DNA from: Phytohabitans rumicis
Lineage (GTDB): Bacteria > Actinomycetota > Actinomycetes > Mycobacteriales > Micromonosporaceae
DNA: 64,000 bases
Reading direction: 5' to 3'
Assembly (NCBI RefSeq): GCF_011764445.1
Contig: NZ_BLPG01000001.1
Span: 4,526,001-4,590,000 of the forward strand
Below, one piece after another: positions 6,340-47,728 of this stretch. Made by a program: the position numbers and the translations under genes. Below the pieces are notes generated by a model that made no database searches, was not told the DNA's origin, and worked only from the letters and a program-made list of their open reading frames with translations. The stretch's first letter is position 1. The number at the start of each line of letters is the position of its first letter.

Positions 6340-6816
6340 TCAAAAACGTTGGGTGCGGACTGACAAAAGGGCACCACCCAGGGCCAAAACGATGGGCGCG
6401 GCCACTCCGTACCCGATGCCGGGACCGCGCGTGGCGCGGACGTCGATCATCGCGAGCCCGCTGGTGATGGTGTCGACCGACGCCCCGACGACGTGGTTGC
6501 TGAGGAGGTTGGCGACCAGCATGCCGGTCACGCCGACGGCGAGGCCGGCCACCGCGGCGCCGCGGGCCGCGCCGCCGGTGGCGGTCGCGGCGCCCGCCAC
6601 GAGGCCGAGCAGCGCGAAGAGCGCGAGCACGTACCACCAGCCGCGCTCCAGCTGGAACACCGCGATGCCGCCGGACTCGTCGAGGGCGGCTTCGCCCGCG
6701 GGTACGTCGACGGCCAGCCGGTAGCGCGCCCACGGTATGGCGAGCGCCAGCAAGGCGAGCACGAACCCGGCCGCCACCAGCACGCCGCCGCCCACCGTGG
6801 CCAACCTCCGGGTCAT
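6340..6816 (-). CDS. small integral membrane protein of unknown function
   Basis: 158 residues with four predicted membrane helices (about 8-28, 62-80, 86-106 and 135-152). A short extracytoplasmic loop after the first helix carries the segment WARYRLAVDVPAGEAALDES. It ends in a basic tail (RTQRF). I recognise no family. It is transcribed away from osmC, with about 48 bp between their starts, so the two likely share a divergent promoter region. Confidence 0.75.
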   Translation of the reverse strand: MTRRLATVGGGVLVAAGFVLALLALAIPWARYRLAVDVPAGEAALDESGGIAVFQLERGWWYVLALFALLGLVAGAATATGGAARGAAVAGLAVGVTGMLVANLLSNHVVGASVDTITSGLAMIDVRATRGPGIGYGVAAPIVLALGGALLSVRTQRF

Positions 6817-6863
6817 GACGGGGATCGTCGCATCGCGCTGCGGTTTGGGCTAGCGTCGCGCAT

Positions 6864-7292
6864 ATGGCTATCCGCACCGCGACTGCCCTGTGGCAGGGCA
6901 ACCTCACCGAGGGTTCCGGCACGATCCGCACTGGCAAGGGTGGGCTCGAGGGGAACTACTCGTTCAAGTCCCGTTTCGAAGAGGGCGAGGGCACCAACCC
7001 CGAGGAGCTCATCGGCGCCGCGCACGCCGGCTGCTTCTCGATGTTCCTCTCCAAGGTCATCGCCGACTCCGGCTACACCCCGGAGTCCGTGGACACCACG
7101 GCCAACGTGCACCTGGAGAAGACCGACGCCGGTCAGACCGTGACCCGGATCGACCTTGAGACCGTCGGTTCGGTGCCGGGCGTCGATGAGGCCGAGTTCG
7201 TCAAGATGGCGGAGAACGCCAAGGCGAACTGCCCGATCTCCCGGCTGCTCGCCCCCGGCGCCGAGATCACCCTGACCGCCCGCCTGGCCTGA
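6864..7292 (+). CDS. OsmC-family peroxiredoxin
   Basis: 142-residue OsmC/Ohr-type thiol peroxidase for organic hydroperoxides. The peroxidatic Cys57 lies in IGAAHAGCFSM and the second Cys123 in AKANCPISRLL, with the conserved Glu pair (Glu48/49) before the first Cys, as in OsmC. It begins at ATG 6864. A hairpin repeat lies immediately after the stop and probably terminates transcription. Confidence 0.93.
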   Translation: MAIRTATALWQGNLTEGSGTIRTGKGGLEGNYSFKSRFEEGEGTNPEELIGAAHAGCFSMFLSKVIADSGYTPESVDTTANVHLEKTDAGQTVTRIDLETVGSVPGVDEAEFVKMAENAKANCPISRLLAPGAEITLTARLA

Positions 7293-7298
7293 GGTGCA

Positions 7299-7345
7299 AG
7301 GAAGGGCACCCTGTTCACGCTTTCTGCATAGCAGGGGCCCTTCCT
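7299..7345. repeat. hairpin repeat element, copy 1 (probable terminator)
   Basis: Imperfect inverted repeat with left arm AGGAAGGGCACCCTGTT, a loop around cacgctttctgcat, and right arm AGCAGGGGCCCTTCCT. A closely similar but perfectly paired copy occurs at 57794-57841, including the flanking GAGGTGCA and the loop CGCTTT.TGCATA. It sits directly after osmC and before a metallopeptidase gene on the same strand. Position and structure fit a terminator, and the conservation between copies suggests a dispersed repeat family. Confidence 0.75.
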
Positions 7346-7368
7346 AACCCATCGGGCACAATGGCTGG

Positions 7369-7722
7369 GTGCCCGTTGAGATGAGCCGGGAACGGTTCGA
7401 GGAACTGGTCAGCGAGGCGCTCGACGAGGTGCCCGAAGAGCTGCTCGGCCTCATGAGCAACGTTGTGATCCTGGTCGAGGACGACCCTCCGCGCGGCGAC
7501 CCGCACCTGCTCGGCGTGTACGAGGGGTACGCGCTCACCCGCCGCGGCTGGGACTACGGTGGCGTGCTGCCCGACCGGATCACCATCTTCCGCAATCCCA
7601 CGCTGCGCGTCTGCGATACCGAGGACGACGTGGTGGACGAGGTCGCGATCACGGTCGTCCACGAGATCGCCCACCACTTCGGCATCGACGACGAGCGGCT
7701 GCACGAGCTCGGCTGGGGCTGA
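7369..7722 (+). CDS. metallopeptidase family protein (minimal zincin, DUF1025-like)
   Basis: 117-residue single-domain protein with the zinc-protease signature HEIAH at residues 98-102 followed by HFGIDD. This is the mini-metallopeptidase family widespread in actinobacteria. The N-terminal half (FEELVSEALDEVPEEL, then VEDDPP and LLGVYEGYALT) is typical of it. GTG 7369 is the start. It has no signal peptide, so it is cytoplasmic. The substrate is unknown. Confidence 0.88.
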   Translation: MPVEMSRERFEELVSEALDEVPEELLGLMSNVVILVEDDPPRGDPHLLGVYEGYALTRRGWDYGGVLPDRITIFRNPTLRVCDTEDDVVDEVAITVVHEIAHHFGIDDERLHELGWG

Positions 7723-7751
7723 CCTTGCCTTGCCCTCCTACCCTCCTGGGC

Positions 7752-8474
7752 ATGCGTAGCGCGCTGTTCTCGGCAGAGAACCTCGAGAAGGAGTCCGCCC
7801 AGCCCGGAATGCGGCTGCAGAACTCGAAGATGCTGAAGATAGAGCTCAACGGCGAGTGCATGGCCCGTACCGGCGCCATGGTCGCCTACCAGGGGCAGGT
7901 GCAGTTCCAGGCCCTCGGTTCGGGTGGGATCGGCAAGTTTCTCAAGCAGAAGCTGACCGGCGAGGGCGTACCCCTGATGAAGATGGCGGGCCGCGGCGAT
8001 GTGTTTCTCGCGGACCTCGCCTCGGACGTGCACCTGATCGACCTGGAGCCCGGCGACGCCCTGTCGATCAACGGTTCCAGCGTGCTGGCGTTCGACTCGA
8101 CCCTCCAGTACGACATCAAGATGGTCCAGGGCATGGGGATGCTCTCCTCGGCCGGCCTGTTCAACTGCGTGTTCACGGGCCAGGGGCGGATCGCGGTCAC
8201 CACCAAGGGCACCCCGGTCGTGCTGAACGTCGACCAGCCCACGTTCGTCGACCCGCAGGCGGCGGTCTGCTGGTCGGCCAACCTGCAGACCGGCTACCAC
8301 CGGGCCGAGCAGTTGGGCCTCGGCACGCTGCTCGGGCGGCGTACCGGCGAGGCGTTCACGATGAGCTTCGCGGGGCAGGGCTTCGTGGTGGTCCAGCCCT
8401 CGGAGGAGCCGCCCGTGCAGGGCAGCGGCCAGCAGCAGCAGAGCGGCGGCCTGGGCAGCCTCCTCGGCGGCTGA
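7752..8474 (+). CDS. AIM24 family protein
   Basis: About 240 residues of the AIM24/TIGR00266 (DUF124) beta-barrel family, whose bacterial role is undefined. It shows the family features of repeated glycine-rich beta strands (KIELNGECMARTGAMVAYQG, MKMAGRGDVFLAD, GEAFTMSFAGQGFVVVQPSE). The tail is rich in Gln/Gly/Ser. I chose ATG 7752 over an upstream in-frame start at 7725 that only adds residues unlike the family. It ends two bases from the convergent pheA. Confidence 0.88.
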   Translation: MRSALFSAENLEKESAQPGMRLQNSKMLKIELNGECMARTGAMVAYQGQVQFQALGSGGIGKFLKQKLTGEGVPLMKMAGRGDVFLADLASDVHLIDLEPGDALSINGSSVLAFDSTLQYDIKMVQGMGMLSSAGLFNCVFTGQGRIAVTTKGTPVVLNVDQPTFVDPQAAVCWSANLQTGYHRAEQLGLGTLLGRRTGEAFTMSFAGQGFVVVQPSEEPPVQGSGQQQQSGGLGSLLGG

Positions 8475-8476
8475 GC

Positions 8477-9430
8477 TCAGGCCAGGTCGCCGGCCCGGAG
8501 GCGGGCCAGCCACGCGGCGGCGTCCGCGTAGTCCACATCGGAGAGTCCGGCCGGCGCGGGGACCGGCCGGTCGGACTCCGTCGCCCAGCGGTGCCTCGGG
8601 TACGAGCCGAGGAAGCGCACCTCGGCGCAGACCCGGCGCAGACCCTGGAGCGCCTCGCCGAGCCGGCCGTCGGCCACGTGCCCGGAGCAGTCCAGGAAGA
8701 ACGCGTACCGGCCCAGCTGCTCCCCGGTGGGCCGGGACTCGATGCGGGTGAGGTTGACCCCGCGTACGGCCAGCTCCATGAGGACGGCGAGCAGGGCGCC
8801 GACCCGGTCGTGTGAGATGAAGACCGCCAGCGATGTGACGTCGTCGCCGGTCGGCTCGGGGGGCGGCCCCGGGCGGGTCACCAGTACGAACCGGGTGACC
8901 GCGTCCGAATGGTCGGCGATCTTGTCAGCCAGCACCGACAACTTGTACCGGGTCGCGCCGATGGGGGCGCAGATCGCGGCGTCGTACTCGCCCTCGGCTG
9001 CCGCGATGGCGGCCGTCGAGTTGGAGAGCACGTCGACGACCGTCGCGGCCGGGAGGTGGGCCTGGAGCCAGCCGCGGCACTGGGTGGATGCCTGCGGGTG
9101 GGCCGCCACCGTCTGGATCCGGTCCAGCGAAACCCCGGCGCGGGTGCCGAGCACGAACTCCACCGGGATCACCACCTCGCGGGTGATCACCAGCGGCGCC
9201 CCGTCGATCATCTCGTCGAGCGTGACGCCCACCGCGCCGCCGATCGAGTTCTCCAGGGGTACGAGGGCGGCGTCGGCGTCGCCGCCACGGACCGCGTCGA
9301 GGGCCTCCGGGACGCTCCGCATGGGCGTACGGATGCCGCGCTCGGCTGCGGGGATCGTCCGCAGCGCCTGCTCGGTGAAGGTCGCCTCGGGACCGAGGAA
9401 GACGAAGCGGGTGGGTGGAACTCCGGGCAT
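8477..9430 (-). CDS. pheA: prephenate dehydratase
   Basis: 317 residues converting prephenate to phenylpyruvate in phenylalanine biosynthesis. The N-terminal catalytic domain shows FLGPEATFTEQA, PLENSIGG and the substrate-binding triad TRF at 179-181. The C-terminal ACT regulatory domain (about 200-285) carries the phenylalanine-binding motif ESRP at 231-234, so feedback inhibition is likely. No chorismate mutase is fused. The upstream lipoprotein gene is on the same strand. Confidence 0.95.
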   Translation of the reverse strand: MPGVPPTRFVFLGPEATFTEQALRTIPAAERGIRTPMRSVPEALDAVRGGDADAALVPLENSIGGAVGVTLDEMIDGAPLVITREVVIPVEFVLGTRAGVSLDRIQTVAAHPQASTQCRGWLQAHLPAATVVDVLSNSTAAIAAAEGEYDAAICAPIGATRYKLSVLADKIADHSDAVTRFVLVTRPGPPPEPTGDDVTSLAVFISHDRVGALLAVLMELAVRGVNLTRIESRPTGEQLGRYAFFLDCSGHVADGRLGEALQGLRRVCAEVRFLGSYPRHRWATESDRPVPAPAGLSDVDYADAAAWLARLRAGDLA

Positions 9431-40923: not shown

Positions 40924-42543
40924 TTAGTAGGCACCCTTGCGGGCGAGAACCACGCCGACCGTGCGCCACAGGATGTTCAGGTCGTAGGCGAGCGACCAGT
41001 TGTCCACGTAGTACAGGTCGAGCCGGACGGCCTCGTCCCAGGACAGGTCGGAGCGGCCGGACACCTGCCACAGGCCGGTGATGCCGGGGCGGACCAGCAG
41101 CCGGCGCCGGACGTCGCCGAGGAAGTCACCGTCGTCGGCCGGCAACGGTCGCGGTCCGACGAGCGACATCTCGCCCCGGAGCACGTTGATGAGCTGCGGC
41201 AGCTCGTCGAGGGAACTGGCCCGCAGGAACCGCCCGACCGGGAAGACCCGCGGGTCCTCCTTGATCTTGAAGAGCATGCCGTCGGACTCGTTCTGGTCGA
41301 CCAGGGTCGCGAGCCGGTCCTCCGCGTCGACGTACATGGTCCGGAACTTCCAGACCCGGAACGTCCGGCCCTCGTGACCCACCCGGGGCTGCCGGAAGAA
41401 GACGGGGCCGCGGTCGGACATCTTGATGGCCACCGCGATGACGGTGAGGAGCGGCGCCAGCAGCAGCAGGCCGAGCCCGGCGGCCACCCGGTCGAGCAGA
41501 TTCTTCGCCAGCCAGCCGATCCCGGACAGGGTCGGCTCCTCGACGTGCAGCAGGGGCAGGCCCTCGATCGGCCGGATGTGCACGCGTGGCCCGGCGATGT
41601 CGGTCAGCTGCGGCGCGACCACCAGGTCGACACCGGTGCCTTCGAGCTGCCAGGCCAGGCGGCGCAGCTCGCCGGGCTCGGCACTGGCCGAGCCGCACAC
41701 CGCGATCGTGTCGGCCCCGACCTCGCGCACGAGGGTGAGCACGTCGCGCCCGGCGTACACCGGGACCGGCGTATCGATTCCGCGCGCGGCGGCGTACCCG
41801 TCGGTGATGTGGATGGCGACCGGGATCAGGCCGGCGGACGGGCTGCGGGTGACCGCCGTGTAGACCTCCAGGGTCTCCGGCAGCGTGCCGACCAGGAGCA
41901 TCCGGTGGGCCGCCTGCCCGGACCGCTTGCGGACCTGGTGCAGTACGAAGCGGGCGGAGTACCTGGCGATGAGGATGGCCAGGGTGGCGCCGACCAGGGC
42001 GGTGGCCACGGTGAGTCGGGACAGGTCGGTCTTGGTGGCGAACGCGAGGAACGACACGCTCGCCATGACCGTCACCGAGGCGCGTACGACGCGTTTGAAC
42101 TCATCGGTGCCGAGGCCGAGATAGCGGCGGTCGTAGGCGCCGTTGCCCCACAGCATGATGAGCCAGCCGACGGGCAGCAGGACGTACGCCACGGTCTTGA
42201 ACCACGCCTCGTCGGCGTCCTGGAAACCGGAGACCGCCTGGTCGTACGCGGAGATGGAGATGAAGCTCGCCAGCGCGGCCGCGCCGTAGTCGAGGAACAG
42301 GAGCGCCACGGTGTAGGGACGGTGCCAGCGCGACGCCCGGCGGTGCGCGCGCGCCCAAGCGGACCGCGGCACGCCGTTGTGCGGCGGTGGCGTCGGAGCC
42401 TGAATCTCGAAGCTGTCGACGTGACGCACGGTGCTGCTCCGGCCTGTGTTTGCTACCGGGCGTTGGAGGCTTGTCGTCACCTCACCTACGTCCTCCCGCT
42501 TTGCACGTGCCGCCCATGTGCCGTCAGGCTCGGGACTGACCAC
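40924..42543 (-). CDS. undecaprenyl-phosphate sugar phosphotransferase (polyprenyl glycosylphosphotransferase)
   Basis: Up to 539 residues. Five membrane helices and a central CoA-binding-like domain precede the C-terminal bacterial sugar transferase domain: DRGPVFFRQPRVGHEGRTFR, KFRTMYVDAEDR, SLVGPRPLPADDG and RPGITGLWQVSGRSDLSWDE. It adds the first sugar-1-phosphate to undecaprenyl phosphate for an exopolysaccharide or wall glycan (WbaP/WcaJ type). The exact start among several is uncertain; GTG 42543 is the longest. Confidence 0.92.
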   Translation of the reverse strand: MVSPEPDGTWAARAKREDVGEVTTSLQRPVANTGRSSTVRHVDSFEIQAPTPPPHNGVPRSAWARAHRRASRWHRPYTVALLFLDYGAAALASFISISAYDQAVSGFQDADEAWFKTVAYVLLPVGWLIMLWGNGAYDRRYLGLGTDEFKRVVRASVTVMASVSFLAFATKTDLSRLTVATALVGATLAILIARYSARFVLHQVRKRSGQAAHRMLLVGTLPETLEVYTAVTRSPSAGLIPVAIHITDGYAAARGIDTPVPVYAGRDVLTLVREVGADTIAVCGSASAEPGELRRLAWQLEGTGVDLVVAPQLTDIAGPRVHIRPIEGLPLLHVEEPTLSGIGWLAKNLLDRVAAGLGLLLLAPLLTVIAVAIKMSDRGPVFFRQPRVGHEGRTFRVWKFRTMYVDAEDRLATLVDQNESDGMLFKIKEDPRVFPVGRFLRASSLDELPQLINVLRGEMSLVGPRPLPADDGDFLGDVRRRLLVRPGITGLWQVSGRSDLSWDEAVRLDLYYVDNWSLAYDLNILWRTVGVVLARKGAY

Positions 42544-42717: not shown

Positions 42718-43578
42718 TTAGCGCACGAGCCGTGACAGTCTGCGATCGGCAAGTGGCTTTCCGCCCGTCTGGCATGTCGGGCAATACTGCAGGCTGGAGT
42801 CGGCAAAGGACACTTCCCGCACCGTGTCGCCACACACCGGGCAAGGCAGGCCGGTCCGGGCATGCACCTGAAGTCCGGACCGCTTTTCGCCCTTGAGCTC
42901 CGCGGCCCGCTGGCCGACCGAACGGGCCACCGCGTCATTGAGTACGTCCCGCAATGCGCTGTGTAGTCCCGCCATCTGCTCGTCGGTCAGCCGGGTGGTG
43001 ATGGCGAACGGCGACAGCTTCGCGGCGTGCAGGATCTCGTCCGAGTACGCGTTGCCGACGCCGGCCAGCACCTCCTGCTCGGTGAGGACGCCCTTGACCT
43101 GGCCGCGCCGGCCGCGTAGGCGCTCGGCGAACGTCGGCAGGTCGGCGGCCAGGGCGTCCGGGCCGAGCTTGGCGACGCCGGGCACCTGCATCGGGTCCTT
43201 CACCAGGTAGGCGGAGAGCTTCTTCTGCGTACCGGCCTCGGTGAGGTCGAAGCCGGAGCCGTCGTCGAGGCGTACGCGCACGGCGATCGGGCCCTTGCCG
43301 GGCTTGAGCGGTGCGGTGCCGGGGAACGCGTCGCGGTAGTGCAGCCAGCCGGCCCGGGCCAGGTGCACCACGAGGTGCAGATCGGCACCAAGATGGATGT
43401 CGAGGAACTTGCCGTGCCGGGACGCGCCCGTCAGCTCCAGTCCGGCCGCGGCCGACGGCGGCGGGTCGTACGTCTTCAGGGCGCTGATCGCGGAGATTTC
43501 GATCCGGTCGACGCGCCGTCCGGCGGCCCGCTCGCGAAGATACGCGGCGAGCGCCTCCACCTCGGGCAACTCGGGCAT
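42718..43578 (-). CDS. Fpg/Nei-family DNA glycosylase
   Basis: 286 residues for excision of oxidised bases with AP-lyase activity. The mature N-terminus PELPEVEAL carries the catalytic Pro2 and Glu3. A conserved Lys is in SRHGKFLDI, the helix-two-turn-helix includes VLAGVGNAYSDEIL, and the C-terminal zinc finger is CPVCGDTVREVS...YCPTCQTGG (four Cys). I chose ATG 43578 because Pro2 must follow the Met. Oriented back-to-back with the GT4 gene. Confidence 0.94.
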   Translation of the reverse strand: MPELPEVEALAAYLRERAAGRRVDRIEISAISALKTYDPPPSAAAGLELTGASRHGKFLDIHLGADLHLVVHLARAGWLHYRDAFPGTAPLKPGKGPIAVRVRLDDGSGFDLTEAGTQKKLSAYLVKDPMQVPGVAKLGPDALAADLPTFAERLRGRRGQVKGVLTEQEVLAGVGNAYSDEILHAAKLSPFAITTRLTDEQMAGLHSALRDVLNDAVARSVGQRAAELKGEKRSGLQVHARTGLPCPVCGDTVREVSFADSSLQYCPTCQTGGKPLADRRLSRLVR

Positions 43579-43603
43579 GTGACAAACGGTAGCTTCTAAA
43601 GCC

Positions 43604-44769
43604 GTGAAGGTGGTCGTCGCGCACAACCGCTACCGGGCCGCCCAGCCGTCCGGCGAAAACACGATCGTCGACCTGGAGATCGCCCAGCTGGCGGCGGCCG
43701 GGGTCACGGTGCTGCCGTTCCTGCGCAGCTCCGATGAGATCGCCGACCTGCCCAAGGCGAGCAAGGCGCTGCTGCCGCTGGCGCCGATCTACGCCCCGGG
43801 CGCCCAGCGCGACCTCGCCGCGCTCATCCAGGAGCATCGCCCGGACGTGCTGCACCTGCACAACCCGTACCCGTTGCTGTCGCCCTGGGTGGTGCGGACC
43901 GCGCACCGGCACGGCGTGCCGGTCGTGCAGACGGTCCACAACTACCGCCAGGTGTGCGCGTCTGGCCTGTATTTCCGGGACGGGGGCATCTGCCAGGACT
44001 GTCGCGGGCGTTTTGTAGGGGTTCCGGCTGTGGTGCACCGGTGCTACCGGGGCTCCCGGGCGCAGAGCGCGCTGATGGCGACCGCCCTCGCGGTGCACCG
44101 GCCGACCTGGCGCTCGGTCGACAGGTACATCGCGCTCACCGAGGCGATCGCCGAGCACCTGCGCGACTACGGCATCCCGGACGACCGGATCGTGGTCAAG
44201 CCGAACTCGGTGCCCGACCCGGGGGCGCCCGCCCCGCTCGGCGACGGGTTTCTCTTCCTCGGCCGGCTCTCCCCGGAGAAGGGCGTCGGCCTGCTGCTCG
44301 ACGCCTGGCGCCGGCATCCGGACGGGGCGGTTGGGCGGCTGCGGATAGCCGGCGACGGCGAGCTGCGCGGGCTGGTCGAGGAGGCGGCCGCGAGCCGCGA
44401 CGACGTCGAGTTCCTCGGCGTGCTGGACCGGGACGGGGTACGCGCCGCCGTGCGCGACGCCGCCGTCGTGCTCGCCACGTCGACCTGGCACGACGTCCTG
44501 CCCACGGTGGTCATCGAGGCGCTCGCCGCCGGCCGGCCGGTGCTGGGTACGGCGCTGGGCGGCATCCCGTACCTGGTGGGCGAGGCCGGCTGGATCGTGC
44601 CCCCGACCCCGAGGCCCTGGCCGCCGCCCTGCCGGCCGTCCTTGCCGGGGCCGCGCCGCTGTCCCAGGTGGCCCGCTCCCGCTACGAGCACACCTTCCAC
44701 CCCGACGTGGTCACCAAGCGCCTCATCGAGGTGTACGCGGAAATGTCTAGCGGGCCGCGCGGGCGCTGA
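43604..44769 (+). CDS. glycosyltransferase family 4, apparent 1-base frameshift near the C-terminus
   Basis: 388 residues when corrected. N-terminal acceptor half: MKVVVAHNRYRAAQPSGENT, VLHLHNPYPLLSPWVV. Donor half: LFLGRLSPEKGVGLLLDAWR, EVIEALAAGRPVLGT-like VVIEALAAGRPVLGTALGG. Near 44600 the frame turns into PTPRPWPPPC. One more C in the run 44600-44604 restores IVPPDPEALAAALPAVLAG and the normal end at 44769. The Cys-rich GICQDCRG segment is unusual. It lies beside the CDP-alcohol transferase cluster and overlaps it convergently by 23 bp. Confidence 0.88.
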
Positions 44770-45457
44770 AGGCGATGCTGGCCAGCAGGAAGCCGCCGTT
44801 GACGACGGTGAAGGCGGCGATGAACCAGACCGACCAGGATGGGGCCACGAGCAGCACCGCGGCGGCCACGAAGATCACCGCGCCGTAGTCGCGGATCAGC
44901 TTGACCACGCGTACGGGCAGCGACGTCGAGGGGACCATGCTCGCGGCGTTCGGGCCGGACTGCATCACCGAGGTGACCAGGTTGACCATCCAGGTCCCGG
45001 CGAACGCGGACACCAGCCACGCGGGCGTCGACGGGCGCTGCGCCACGGCGGTCGCCCCGAGCGCGGTGACCAGGGCGATCTGGGCGGCCACGTCGCACAG
45101 GATGTCGACCCGGGCGCCGGCCGGGCTGGTTCGCCCGGTCACCCGGGCGAGCTGGCCGTCCGCGCAGTCCAGGCCGTACGCCAGCTGCCAGCCCACCAGG
45201 GCGAGCAGGCCGACCGGCCAGGCGGGCACGCGCCCGTCCGCGACCGGCTCGGCCAGCGCCACGACGGCGACCGAGGTGGCGAGCCCGAGCACCAGGTTGG
45301 CGACCGTCAGCGTGGTCGGGGACAGGCCGAGGCGGTTGCCGGCCGCCGCCAGGATCGCGCCCAGGCGCTGGCTGACCGCCTCGCTGAAGAGCCCACCGCC
45401 GCGGTTGACGCGGTAGAACTCGGCCGGTCCGGGCCTACTTATCGTCGCCGACTGCAT
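44747..45457 (-). CDS. CDP-alcohol phosphatidyltransferase family protein
   Basis: 236-residue membrane enzyme with about six helices and the full catalytic motif D-x2-D-G-x2-A-R-x8-G-x3-D-x3-D in DCADGQLARVTGRTSPAGAR then VDILCD. It would transfer a phospho-alcohol from a CDP donor to an acceptor. Upstream on the same strand are a glycerol-1-phosphate dehydrogenase-like gene and a cytidylyltransferase, which could supply the CDP-linked donor. The substrate is unproven. Confidence 0.92.
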   Translation of the reverse strand: MQSATISRPGPAEFYRVNRGGGLFSEAVSQRLGAILAAAGNRLGLSPTTLTVANLVLGLATSVAVVALAEPVADGRVPAWPVGLLALVGWQLAYGLDCADGQLARVTGRTSPAGARVDILCDVAAQIALVTALGATAVAQRPSTPAWLVSAFAGTWMVNLVTSVMQSGPNAASMVPSTSLPVRVVKLIRDYGAVIFVAAAVLLVAPSWSVWFIAAFTVVNGGFLLASIAFSARAAR

Positions 45458-46499
45458 CGACGTAGTCTGCCAGCCGCGCCCGGATCTGCTCCGGCTCCAT
45501 CGCGAGGTGTTCCAAGATCGTGTACCGGTCGGGGCGGGTCGCCGGCGCGTGCGCGACGACCTTGACGAAGTCGTCGTCGGTCAGGCCGAGGTCGCTCGGG
45601 CGGGTCGCCAGGCCGTGCCGGCGCAGGGCGGTCCTGAGCTGGTCAAAACCGGCCGTGTCGCCGCGCAGGTACGTGCAGAAGAGCGCACCCAGGCCGACCT
45701 GCTCGCCGTGCGACGCGGTGCCCGGCAGGAGCAGGTCGATGGCGTGCGAGACCTCGTGGCAGCTGCCGCTGGCCGGTCGGCTCGACCCGCAGATCGCCAT
45801 CGCCAGCCCACCCATGATCAACGCTTCGGCGAGCGTGGTGAGAAACGCGTCGTCGGTGATCGTGCCGGGGTGGTTGAGCAGGGCGACGGCGCTGGTCCGG
45901 GCGAGCGCCACGGCGAGGCCGTCGATCGGCTCCCCGCGTACCCGGTGGGACAGCTCCCAGTCGGCGACCGCGTTGATGTTGCTGAGGGCGTCGCCGATGC
46001 CGGCCTGGGTCTGCCGGTCCGGCCCGTTCTCCACGAAGTCGAGGTCGACGACGACCGCGATCGGGATGTGTACGCCGTACGAGCCGCGCCCGCCGTCGTG
46101 GTCCAGGGAGGCGACCGGCGAGGCGATCCCGTCGTTGGCGAGGCTGGTCGCCACGGTCACCATCGGGATGGCGTAGCGGGACGCGGCGTACTTGGCGGTG
46201 TCGATGGTCTTGCCGCCGCCGATGCCCACCACCGCGTCGTACGACCGCTGGCGCAGCCGGTTGCCGAGCTCCAGCGCGGAGTCCAGGGTGCCGCCGGTGA
46301 CCGTGAAGAGATCGGCGCGGCCCAGCCCCGGGCGGATCAGCTCGGCGATCCGCTCACCCTGGCCCGGCCCGATCACCACGGCCACGTCGCCGCCGCCGGA
46401 GATCCGCCGGTCGGCGAGGAGGCGGCCGAGCTCGGCCACCGCGCCCCGGCGTACCTCGATGGCGAGCGGCGTGTTGACCGTGCGGGCTAGTAGTGGCAT
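45435..46499 (-). CDS. sn-glycerol-1-phosphate dehydrogenase-like (iron/zinc alcohol dehydrogenase superfamily)
   Basis: 354 residues. Resembles AraM/EgsA glycerol-1-phosphate dehydrogenases: VVIGPGQGERIAEL, nucleotide-binding GIGGGKTIDTAKYAA, VTVATSLANDGIASPVASL, metal site SSRPASGSCHEVSHAIDLL and HGEQVGLG. The usual SGSEH is SGSCH here, which changes a residue next to the metal ligands. It would reduce dihydroxyacetone phosphate with NAD(P)H. ATG 46499 lies inside the 3' end of the cytidylyltransferase gene, and the stop is inside the start of the CDP-alcohol transferase gene, a tightly coupled operon. Confidence 0.85.
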   Translation of the reverse strand: MPLLARTVNTPLAIEVRRGAVAELGRLLADRRISGGGDVAVVIGPGQGERIAELIRPGLGRADLFTVTGGTLDSALELGNRLRQRSYDAVVGIGGGKTIDTAKYAASRYAIPMVTVATSLANDGIASPVASLDHDGGRGSYGVHIPIAVVVDLDFVENGPDRQTQAGIGDALSNINAVADWELSHRVRGEPIDGLAVALARTSAVALLNHPGTITDDAFLTTLAEALIMGGLAMAICGSSRPASGSCHEVSHAIDLLLPGTASHGEQVGLGALFCTYLRGDTAGFDQLRTALRRHGLATRPSDLGLTDDDFVKVVAHAPATRPDRYTILEHLAMEPEQIRARLADYVDAVGDDK

Positions 46500-47218
46500 G
46501 CGATCTCCCGGGCGCGGGCGAGATCGGCGTGGTTGTCCACCTCGACCCACTCCACCGCGCCGATCGTGGCCGCCCGCACCTCGCCGCCGCGGTCGGCGTA
46601 CTCCTGGTAGCCGTCCTCGTAGTAGAGGTTGGGATCCCGGCGCCAGGTGGCCTCCAGCGCGTCGGCCAGGGCGGCGGCCGCGTGCGGCTCGATGAGCGTG
46701 GCGCCGATGTACTCCCCGAACGCCTCCGCCGGGTCCATCAGCTTGGTGATCCGGGTGAGCTGCCCGCCGGCGTCGAAGGTCGTCTTCATCTCCTCGTCGG
46801 CGAGCGACTTCACGTCGTCGACGGCGAGCAGGATGCCCGGTCCGCGGGCGGCCAGCAGGGTCTTCTCGATGCTCACCGGGTGCACCGTATCGCCGTTGAC
46901 CAGCAGCGCGCCGTCCGCGAAGTGGTCCCGTGCCAGCCACAGCGAGTACGCGTTGTTCCACTCCTCGGCCTTGTCGTTGGGCACGAGGGTGAGCCGTACG
47001 CCGTACCGGTCCTGCAGCGCGGCCTGCCGGGCCTCGACGGCTCCGGCGGCGTACCCGACGACCACGGCGATGTCCCCCAGACCCACCTCGGCGAGGTTCC
47101 GCAGGGCGATGTCGAGGATCGTGGTCTCCCCGTCCACCGGGACCAGCGCCTTCGGAAGTGTGTCGGTGTACGGCCGCAGCCGCCGGCCCGCGCCGGCCGC
47201 GAGTACTAAGCCGATCAT
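46487..47218 (-). CDS. nucleotidyltransferase, phospho-alcohol cytidylyltransferase-like
   Basis: 243 residues of the NTP-transferase fold. It has the signature LVLAAGAGRRLRPYTDTLPK, then PVDGETTILDIALRNL, and a LicC-like middle NNAYSLWLARDHF and LLVNGDTVHP. The end WVEVDNHADLARAREI also resembles choline-phosphate/inositol-phosphate cytidylyltransferases rather than sugar-nucleotide enzymes. In this operon the likely product is a CDP-polyol for the CDP-alcohol transferase. It is the first gene of a three-gene coupled operon. Confidence 0.85.
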   Translation of the reverse strand: MIGLVLAAGAGRRLRPYTDTLPKALVPVDGETTILDIALRNLAEVGLGDIAVVVGYAAGAVEARQAALQDRYGVRLTLVPNDKAEEWNNAYSLWLARDHFADGALLVNGDTVHPVSIEKTLLAARGPGILLAVDDVKSLADEEMKTTFDAGGQLTRITKLMDPAEAFGEYIGATLIEPHAAAALADALEATWRRDPNLYYEDGYQEYADRGGEVRAATIGAVEWVEVDNHADLARAREIACHY

Positions 47219-47275: not shown

Positions 47276-47728
47276 TCAGAGGCCGAGTATGTGGAGCGCG
47301 GCGAAGCCGTCCTCGGTGATCTTCCGGATCAGGCCGTGGTTGACGTCGCGGTGCTCGTCGAATACGTCGAGCTCACTCTCGGTGATCCAACGGAACTCGG
47401 TGTGCTTGCCCGCCTCCAGTCGAGGGTGGTCCAGGTCGCCATCAACTCGTACCAGAAAATCGGCTTCTGTCCGGTCTATTCCGTCGTTGCCGGTGTATGT
47501 GTACTCGCCGACCGGGCCGAGCACCACCGAGATCGTCCAGCCGGTCTCCTCCCGCACCTCCCGGCGCAGGGCCTCCTCGACGCTCTCTTCGGGTTCCAAA
47601 TGGCCACCGACGATGTCCCAAATATTGGGAAACAGGCGCCGATCGGGTGACCGGCGCTGGATGAAAATGCGCCCGTCGTCGTCGACGATCAAGGCGCCGG
47701 CGCAGCGTAATGGCTCCGTGGGCACCAC
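47276..47728 (-). CDS. NUDIX hydrolase
   Basis: 150 residues with a complete Nudix box, GGHLEPEESVEEALRREVRE then ETGW, that binds Mg for pyrophosphate hydrolysis of a nucleoside-diphosphate derivative. N-terminal strands include CAGALIVDDDGRIFIQRRSP. It starts at GTG 47728, divergent from the CBS gene. The substrate cannot be told. Confidence 0.92.
   Translation of the reverse strand: MVPTEPLRCAGALIVDDDGRIFIQRRSPDRRLFPNIWDIVGGHLEPEESVEEALRREVREETGWTISVVLGPVGEYTYTGNDGIDRTEADFLVRVDGDLDHPRLEAGKHTEFRWITESELDVFDEHRDVNHGLIRKITEDGFAALHILGL

Follow-up and report, generated by a model that had tools for sequence, protein, structure and literature searches.

What activated alcohol is made by a compact operon of Phytohabitans rumicis, and where does it end up? 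The operon lies in a stretch of 64,000 nucleotides (assembly GCF_011764445.1, contig NZ_BLPG01000001.1, positions 4,526,001 to 4,590,000 of the forward strand), the whole of which is referred to below as the window, and encodes a LicC-like cytidylyltransferase, an EgsA/AraM-family dehydrogenase, and a CDP-alcohol phosphotransferase. The operon probably both makes CDP-1-glycerol and spends it on an envelope polymer resembling teichoic acid, the use in a polymer resting on co-occurrence and operon context. As for the first 2 steps, from dihydroxyacetone phosphate (DHAP) via sn-glycerol-1-phosphate (G1P) to CDP-1-glycerol, they can be predicted with good confidence from protein family, residues, and the coupling of the genes. 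The strongest clue to the operon's use lies elsewhere in the genome, in a TagF-type polymerase that is not accompanied by TagD, and was outside the finding of the preliminary description of this DNA.

All 3 genes are on the minus strand and overlap in the reading frames of the window, the cytidylyltransferase and the dehydrogenase by 13 bases, and the dehydrogenase and the phosphotransferase by 23 bases. The dehydrogenase start is likely the ATG at 46499, inside a longer mechanical open reading frame (45435-46961). The preliminary description had reported overlapping genes of these 3 families with a convergent GT4 glycosyltransferase beside them; coordinates and Pfam families bear this out, although a frame shift in the GT4 gene, which runs on the plus strand from 43604, had gone unnoticed.

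The conservation check of the gene set proposed at that time was run on the neighbourhoods of 141 loci (134 distinct), 61 of which were chosen from homology searches (window included), while the other 80 are the best of at least 589 dehydrogenase matches; the loci were picked by dehydrogenase similarity, and the set is skewed to close relatives. Among the distinct loci, the cytidylyltransferase is directly upstream of the dehydrogenase in 130 of 134, a CDP-alcohol phosphotransferase is downstream of the dehydrogenase in 111 (70 of these being of the window's subtype), and all 3 genes stand in order in 110. Since the first 2 genes adjoin in 130 loci and all 3 are ordered in 110, the gene order is not due to chance. 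Carriers include named Micromonosporaceae, Streptomyces, Streptosporangiaceae, and other actinobacteria.

The dehydrogenase passes the gathering score of Pfam family Fe-ADH_2 (PF13685; 107 vs 28 bits, 1e-30), and its best NCBIfam model is NF002022, the G1P dehydrogenase (G1PDH), with 259 bits, the next family having 67. Residues D168, H246, and H262 (P0002 numbering) are invariant in 11 of 11 dehydrogenase sequences, and an SRPxSG stretch is common to the dehydrogenase and archaeal G1PDH structures (aligned with 4rgq, 4rfl, and 5fb3). The 3 residues are the Asp/His/His expected to bind the metal. The closest named dehydrogenase among the matches listed belongs to Micromonospora sp. CPCC 205371 (91% identity).

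Regarding the cytidylyltransferase, LicC (1jyk) is its best match in the Protein Data Bank (PDB) by sequence, and Foldseek ranks 1-4 for its structure model (pLDDT 95.9) are LicC, PntC, and Tm IMPCT. According to VIA-align, PntC leads with Z of 29.6, and several uridylyl- and thymidylyltransferases reach 26-27, level with LicC and IMPCT; because sugar nucleotidyltransferases are poorly separated by this score, the predicted use of CTP rests on Foldseek order, sequence, and context. R13, K23, and D110 are invariant in 31 of 31 cytidylyltransferase sequences and were paired by motif with residues named in the available text of PMC12275187. The enzyme resembles LicC, PntC, Tm IMPCT, and CpgD (COG1213-like) in fold, in the R/K/D catalytic set, and in the predicted CTP-type activation of a non-sugar phosphate, and differs from them in its predicted substrate, G1P.

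The phosphotransferase matches PF01066 at 4e-8 and has all 8 residues of the motif DxxDGxxARx8Gx3Dx3D. The nearest folds to its model (pLDDT 85.1) are AF2299 and IPCT-DIPPS of Archaeoglobus. Identity with the fused IPCT-DIPPS enzyme was considered and rejected, as the 2 separate proteins score 24.5 and 44.5 bits against the 580 needed for the equivalog NF041135. Across subtypes, the last (eighth) Asp of the motif is kept in 25 of 25 window-type phosphotransferases; in the type found in Streptomyces and Streptosporangiaceae this residue is His in 14 of 16 sequences and Ala in 2 of 16 (L073:10332-11117, L074:10040-10810, L075:10331-11086, and others).

Taken as a pathway, the dehydrogenase would reduce DHAP to G1P, as its family and residues suggest, and the LicC-like enzyme would join G1P with CTP to give CDP-1-glycerol, whose mirror image, CDP-3-glycerol, is the product of TagD. 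In a third step, the weakest, the phosphotransferase may move glycerol-1-phosphate onto a lipid-linked acceptor in a TagB-like priming reaction; plausibly, the acceptor might be a sugar on a polyprenol carrier, its assembly started by the sugar-phosphate transferase and the GT4 encoded next to the operon. Finally, a TarF/TagF-type polymerase would lengthen the polymer from the same CDP-1-glycerol, and a transporter of Wzm/Wzt (TagGH) type would export it; both are suggested by co-occurrence and by the operons of relatives. Gene content, gene order, co-inheritance, predicted fold, and active-site conservation are established here, and the substrates are inferred from them. The chain outlined in the preliminary description (DHAP to G1P, to a CDP-polyol, to transfer) agrees with the protein families and their folds, with the active-site residues, with the structure of the operon, and with co-inheritance, and the substrates that it names keep the status of predictions.

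The host genome (10.7 Mb, assembly 96% complete) contains one TagF-type polymerase (PF04464, E 2e-120), located ~0.7 Mb from the operon. It is fused to a GT2 and adjoins a protein with DUF5941 and a CDP-alcohol phosphotransferase (CDP-AP) domain (L221). Its best NCBIfam model is TarF (193 bits; the cut-off of 550 is not reached), and the ribitol polymerase TarL gives 70 bits. TagD (TIGR01518), the classical maker of CDP-glycerol, has no match in this 96% complete assembly, and the operon apparently takes its place. The TagD cut-off is passed by none of the 61 genomes of relatives searched, a set without Streptomyces in which 40 genomes have weaker matches, and by 2 of 14 control genomes.

Within the family, taken from named matches to be Micromonosporaceae, the dehydrogenase (E<=1e-100) and the cytidylyltransferase (E<=1e-60) are found in the identical 23 of 37 genomes; weak dehydrogenase matches occur in G003 (3e-4) and G007 (2e-18), and in G028 the dehydrogenase is apart from the other 2 genes, yet kept (L112, L236). 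The pair is present in 16 of 18 family genomes with TagF (E<=1e-40) vs 7 of 19 others (Fisher p 0.0019, a value that ignores relatedness). None of these 16 genomes reaches the TagD cut-off, and only G023 has more than 60 bits. In the window's genus, G000 and G001 have the dehydrogenase, cytidylyltransferase, phosphotransferase, and TagF, and G002-G005 have none of them at the thresholds used. Of 296 genomes sampled from the class, 72 have the dehydrogenase (E<=1e-40), and TagF (E<=1e-3) is present in 69 of these, vs 71 of the 224 others, relatedness again being ignored; the 3 exceptions with dehydrogenase and no TagF are G155, G217, and G300. In 5 of 141 loci the distance between TagF and the dehydrogenase is at most 10 kb, a proximity too rare to weigh much.

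The protein beside the host polymerase (L221:14684-16543) has 619 amino acids and combines the CDP-alcohol phosphotransferase domain with DUF5941, a domain not named in the open full-text literature searched. The DUF5941 match is kept in all 6 genomes of the window's genus. As a marker of the system DUF5941 was rejected, since within the family its distribution does not follow that of the pair.

The phosphotransferase (E<=1e-30) is present in all 23 pair-carrying family genomes, in 7 other family genomes, and in 1 outside the family. In 5 of these 8 pair-less genomes (G017, G026, G027, G029, and G048) it is preceded by another nucleotidyltransferase with no dehydrogenase, and in 4 of these 5 the gene neighbourhood is the same as in the window. 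The donor module before the phosphotransferase seems to be exchangeable. Among 13 loci that have the phosphotransferase and no adjoining pair (L222-L234; some of the genomes behind them have the pair elsewhere), a GT4 is nearby in 8 and a polyprenyl-phosphate sugar transferase in 7, which suggests that these 3 proteins may act together. The preliminary description had placed glycosylation by the GT4 after the transfer; its staying near the phosphotransferase and the sugar transferase suggests that it may act before that step. In the host, the GT4 gene shifts frame near 44600, with C-terminal homology going on in another frame, and it is a single open frame in 4 of 4 relatives aligned. The shift is either a sequencing error or a sign of a pseudogene in decay.

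Besides the disregard of relatedness in the co-occurrence p-values, several points weigh against use of the operon for such a polymer. Regarding the enzymes, the dehydrogenase is below the equivalog cut-off of NF002022 (259 vs 413 bits) and is hence filed in the wider EgsA/AraM family only, and the PDB entry that it matches best (3ce9, a protein called glycerol dehydrogenase) lacks the Arg of SRPxSG. CpgD, which has the same cytidylyltransferase fold, yielded no product from glycerol-1-phosphate according to the available text of PMC12275187, so the fold alone does not imply G1P as substrate. Since the phosphotransferase occurs in 8 genomes without the pair, 5 of them with another nucleotidyltransferase, its donor need not always be CDP-glycerol. 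Regarding co-occurrence, the absence of TagD at the cut-off comes from a search limited to the 61 relatives, with Streptomyces left out and sub-cut-off matches in 40, and 71 of 224 class genomes carry TagF without the dehydrogenase, so that TagF does not require the pair. Conversely, 7 of 23 pair-carrying family genomes are without a strong TagF (with no match whatever in G011 and G035), a strong TagF is present in G017 and G022, where both genes of the pair are missing, and the DUF5941 and CDP-AP protein persists in G002-G005 without TagF. In the window itself, neither an exporter nor the polymerase adjoins the operon, and the GT4 is frame-shifted in the host genome.

Among alternatives to a polymer, the donor may be CDP-1-glycerol while the product of the phosphotransferase is a lipid head group or a small molecule, for instance glycerophospho-inositol in the manner of an archaeal solute pathway, with TagF using another donor. 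The Archaeoglobus folds nearest to the phosphotransferase fit this proposal, available passages of PMC8262930 name the use of CDP-1-glycerol in archaeal glycerophosphoinositol synthesis, and a PIP synthase in the host genome suggests that inositol phosphate is available. However, relatives' loci pair these genes with a polymer exporter and a GT2, gene presence tracks TagF, and TagD is undetected in the host genome, which makes the proposal unlikely.

It is also rather doubtful that the pair acts on another polyol phosphate, a pentitol or other, in a TarJ/TarI-like manner, so that the donor would not be CDP-glycerol. The score of the dehydrogenase under the G1PDH equivalog cut-off agrees with this, as do the varied phosphates taken by COG1213-like enzymes (available text of PMC12275187) and the different nucleotidyltransferase that stands in for the pair in 5 genomes. 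In contrast, no other NCBIfam model comes near that of G1PDH (259 vs 67 bits), SRPxSG is common with archaeal G1PDHs, and the host TagF is nearer to the glycerol enzyme TarF than to TarL. A Kennedy-type route, in which CDP-1-glycerol and diacylglycerol directly give phosphatidylglycerol with the natural head-group stereochemistry, is distinctly improbable: the only PDB sequence matches of the phosphotransferase (E<=0.001) are eukaryotic choline/ethanolamine phosphotransferases, but the host genome already has PgsA, the cardiolipin synthase ClsA, and PIP synthase, each over its cut-off. That G1P feeds archaeal-type ether lipids via GGGPS, as with AraM/PcrB of Bacillus, is very improbable, since although G1PDH, GGGPS, and DGGGPS co-occur in some Streptomyces according to available passages of a survey (PMC6431249), the 96% complete host genome has no PcrB/GGGPS match (PF01884) in a search that was positive in 7 of 14 control genomes, and the dehydrogenase adjoins the cytidylyltransferase in 130 of 134 loci. 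A role in anti-phage defence was rejected as well, none of the 3 proteins having a PADLOC match.

As for the export step in the polymer pathway proposed above, the locus in other families of the class often includes an additional CDP-alcohol phosphotransferase together with a GT2 and an exporter of Wzm/Wzt type, and a TagG/Wzm-like gene is inside the fetched stretch in 32 of 134 loci. Streptomyces-type loci (e.g., L073, and the named L216 and L218) have a CDP-AP-domain protein, the cytidylyltransferase, the dehydrogenase, a CDP-AP of the second subtype, a GT2, TagG, and TagH; DUF5941 in that first protein is Pfam-confirmed in L073 only. In L073, the one locus scanned, the permease and ATPase score best with the NCBIfam models for galactan Wzm and TagH, and neither score reaches the cut-off. 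Loci of Streptosporangium, Microbispora, and Nonomuraea type share this gene content with no transporter within the stretch, and the transporter is upstream in Nocardiopsis and some other loci. An exporter near the window was considered and rejected: the family loci L140, L143, L151, L153, and L172 carry an ATPase scoring with the TagH profile ~10 kb downstream, but the one scanned, from L140, matches plain ABC_tran, and the corresponding part of the window encodes a sodium symporter.

Some loci of relatives carry further genes. In L080 the pair adjoins a GlfT2-like galactofuranosyltransferase (6742-8856, between the pair and the Wzm-like gene) and a Wzm/TagH-like transporter, which hints at a glycerol-phosphate-bearing galactan in this lineage. 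A Stealth-domain protein (PF11380, PF17102, and PF17103) is encoded near the operon at L081:6600-7334, in a 1.0-Mb actinobacterial assembly that is 60% complete. Extra copies of Streptomyces type are a second cytidylyltransferase-dehydrogenase pair in L071 (8302-10103) and in L129, and a lone dehydrogenase in L139; 2 of these 3 are near TagF genes.

Coordinates of the operon, its neighbours, and the replacement nucleotidyltransferase loci are collected in Table 1. Regarding the neighbours, the glycosylase gene is missing between the GT4 and the sugar transferase in L231, L233, and L234, and the NUDIX hydrolase is found only in some Micromonosporaceae loci.

Table 1. Position, strand, and basis of assignment of the operon genes, neighbouring genes, and replacement loci (window positions unless a locus is given)
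Feature	Position	Strand	Basis or remark
LicC/IMPCT-type (COG1213-like) cytidylyltransferase, proposed CTP:sn-glycerol-1-phosphate cytidylyltransferase	46487-47218	-	243 aa; Pfam PF00483/PF12804, fold, residues
EgsA/AraM-family dehydrogenase, proposed sn-glycerol-1-phosphate dehydrogenase	45435-46499	-	354 aa; PF13685, NF002022
Membrane CDP-alcohol phosphotransferase, proposed glycerol-1-phosphate transferase to lipid-linked acceptor	44747-45457	-	236 aa; PF01066, motif, fold
GT4 glycosyltransferase, convergent, frame-shifted; possible acceptor builder	43604-44770	+	PF13692/PF13439
Polyprenyl-phosphate sugar-1-phosphate transferase (EPS_sugtrans), possible acceptor primer	40924-42543	-	PF02397 5.6e-68; TIGR03025 405 bits, over cut-off; conserved neighbour
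Fpg/Nei-type DNA glycosylase, syntenic, probably outside the system	42718-43626	-	PF01149, PF06831
NUDIX hydrolase, upstream of the operon	47276-47728	-	PF00293; variably conserved neighbour
Replacement nucleotidyltransferase loci	L222:10038-10715, L223:8895-9569, L224:10233-10907, L225:8408-9085, L229:10128-10802		In place of the cytidylyltransferase-dehydrogenase pair

Among known systems, TagD with TagB/TagF of Bacillus wall teichoic acid is comparable in having cytoplasmic CDP-glycerol for a TagF polymerase and export of the polymer by an ABC transporter. Here, in contrast, the cytidylyltransferase fold is unrelated, the predicted mirror-image substrate would come from a dedicated dehydrogenase, a CDP-alcohol phosphotransferase is in the operon, and TagD is undetected. 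TarI and TarJ are also a neighbouring cytidylyltransferase and dehydrogenase, making CDP-ribitol for TarF/L-type enzymes, with folds and a polyol that differ from those predicted here. The archaeal CDP-1-glycerol/glycerophosphoinositol pathway with IPCT-DIPPS of Archaeoglobus (its use of CDP-1-glycerol being named in available passages of PMC8262930) shares the predicted G1P-derived donor, the nucleotidyltransferase fold, and a CDP-alcohol phosphotransferase, whereas in the present case the genes are separate with no fusion, the host is bacterial, and the context is envelope polymer export. AraM of Bacillus subtilis is a bacterial G1PDH of the EgsA family (available text of PMC5059525); its G1P enters an archaeal-type ether lipid, whereas the dehydrogenase of the operon is partnered by a cytidylyltransferase, and the host genome gave no PcrB match.

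Among actinobacteria, a 2026 synteny study mentions a Streptomyces region of araM, CDP-AP, GT2, tagG, tagH, and a sugar-phosphate nucleotidyltransferase in relation to teichoic acid biosynthesis (available passages of PMC13118837). This is the same gene set as in the relatives' loci, from which the window differs by the phosphotransferase subtype; the available part of the study gives no pathway, no CDP-1-glycerol, and no link to the absence of TagD. The tag cluster of Bifidobacterium bifidum likewise combines actinobacterial tag genes (tagB, tagG, and tagH) with a cytidylyltransferase, annotated ispD, and differs in that no G1P dehydrogenase is mentioned in the available text (PMC12286996). 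The preliminary description knew of no described actinobacterial pathway with this gene set. In the open full-text literature searched, no description of this G1P/CDP-1-glycerol pathway was found, which agrees with that statement, but the gene set itself is not confined to the window and is listed in the available part of PMC13118837.

Overall, the proposed system is best regarded as an envelope polymer pathway that depends on CDP-glycerol and draws on a different, mirror-image supply of this donor. A 2021 paper argues that bacteria probably do not have CDP-1-glycerol and that their glycerol-1-phosphate groups derive from other donors (available passages of PMC8262930), and 2 phylogenetic studies consider the G1PDH of actinobacteria or bacteria with regard to lipids, as far as their available text goes (PMC6431249, PMC5059525). 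According to available passages of PMC3196553, S. hygroscopicus has a polyglycerolphosphate lipoteichoic acid that closely resembles its wall teichoic acid, the genomes are without a clear LtaS, and a shared pathway for actinobacterial lipoteichoic and wall teichoic acid has been proposed.

Tentatively, and with the chances somewhat short of even, it may be that many actinobacteria (Streptomyces, Streptosporangiaceae, and Micromonosporaceae relatives) use sn-glycerol-1-phosphate donated by CDP-1-glycerol to assemble their glycerol teichoic acids, and perhaps lipoteichoic acids too. The polymer would then be the mirror image of that of Bacillus and would be primed by CDP-alcohol phosphotransferases of its own, which would explain synthesis without TagD or LtaS. 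If true, a widespread bacterial CDP-1-glycerol route would overturn the supposed absence of this donor from bacteria, as stated in the available part of PMC8262930. The "archaeal" enantiomer would gain a bacterial envelope use outside ether lipids, which would bear on the debate on bacterial G1PDH, to the extent that it is set out in the available text of PMC6431249 and PMC5059525. Such a route could further explain how actinobacteria that lack a clear LtaS make a glycerol-phosphate lipoteichoic acid that is like wall teichoic acid, as described in the available passages of PMC3196553.

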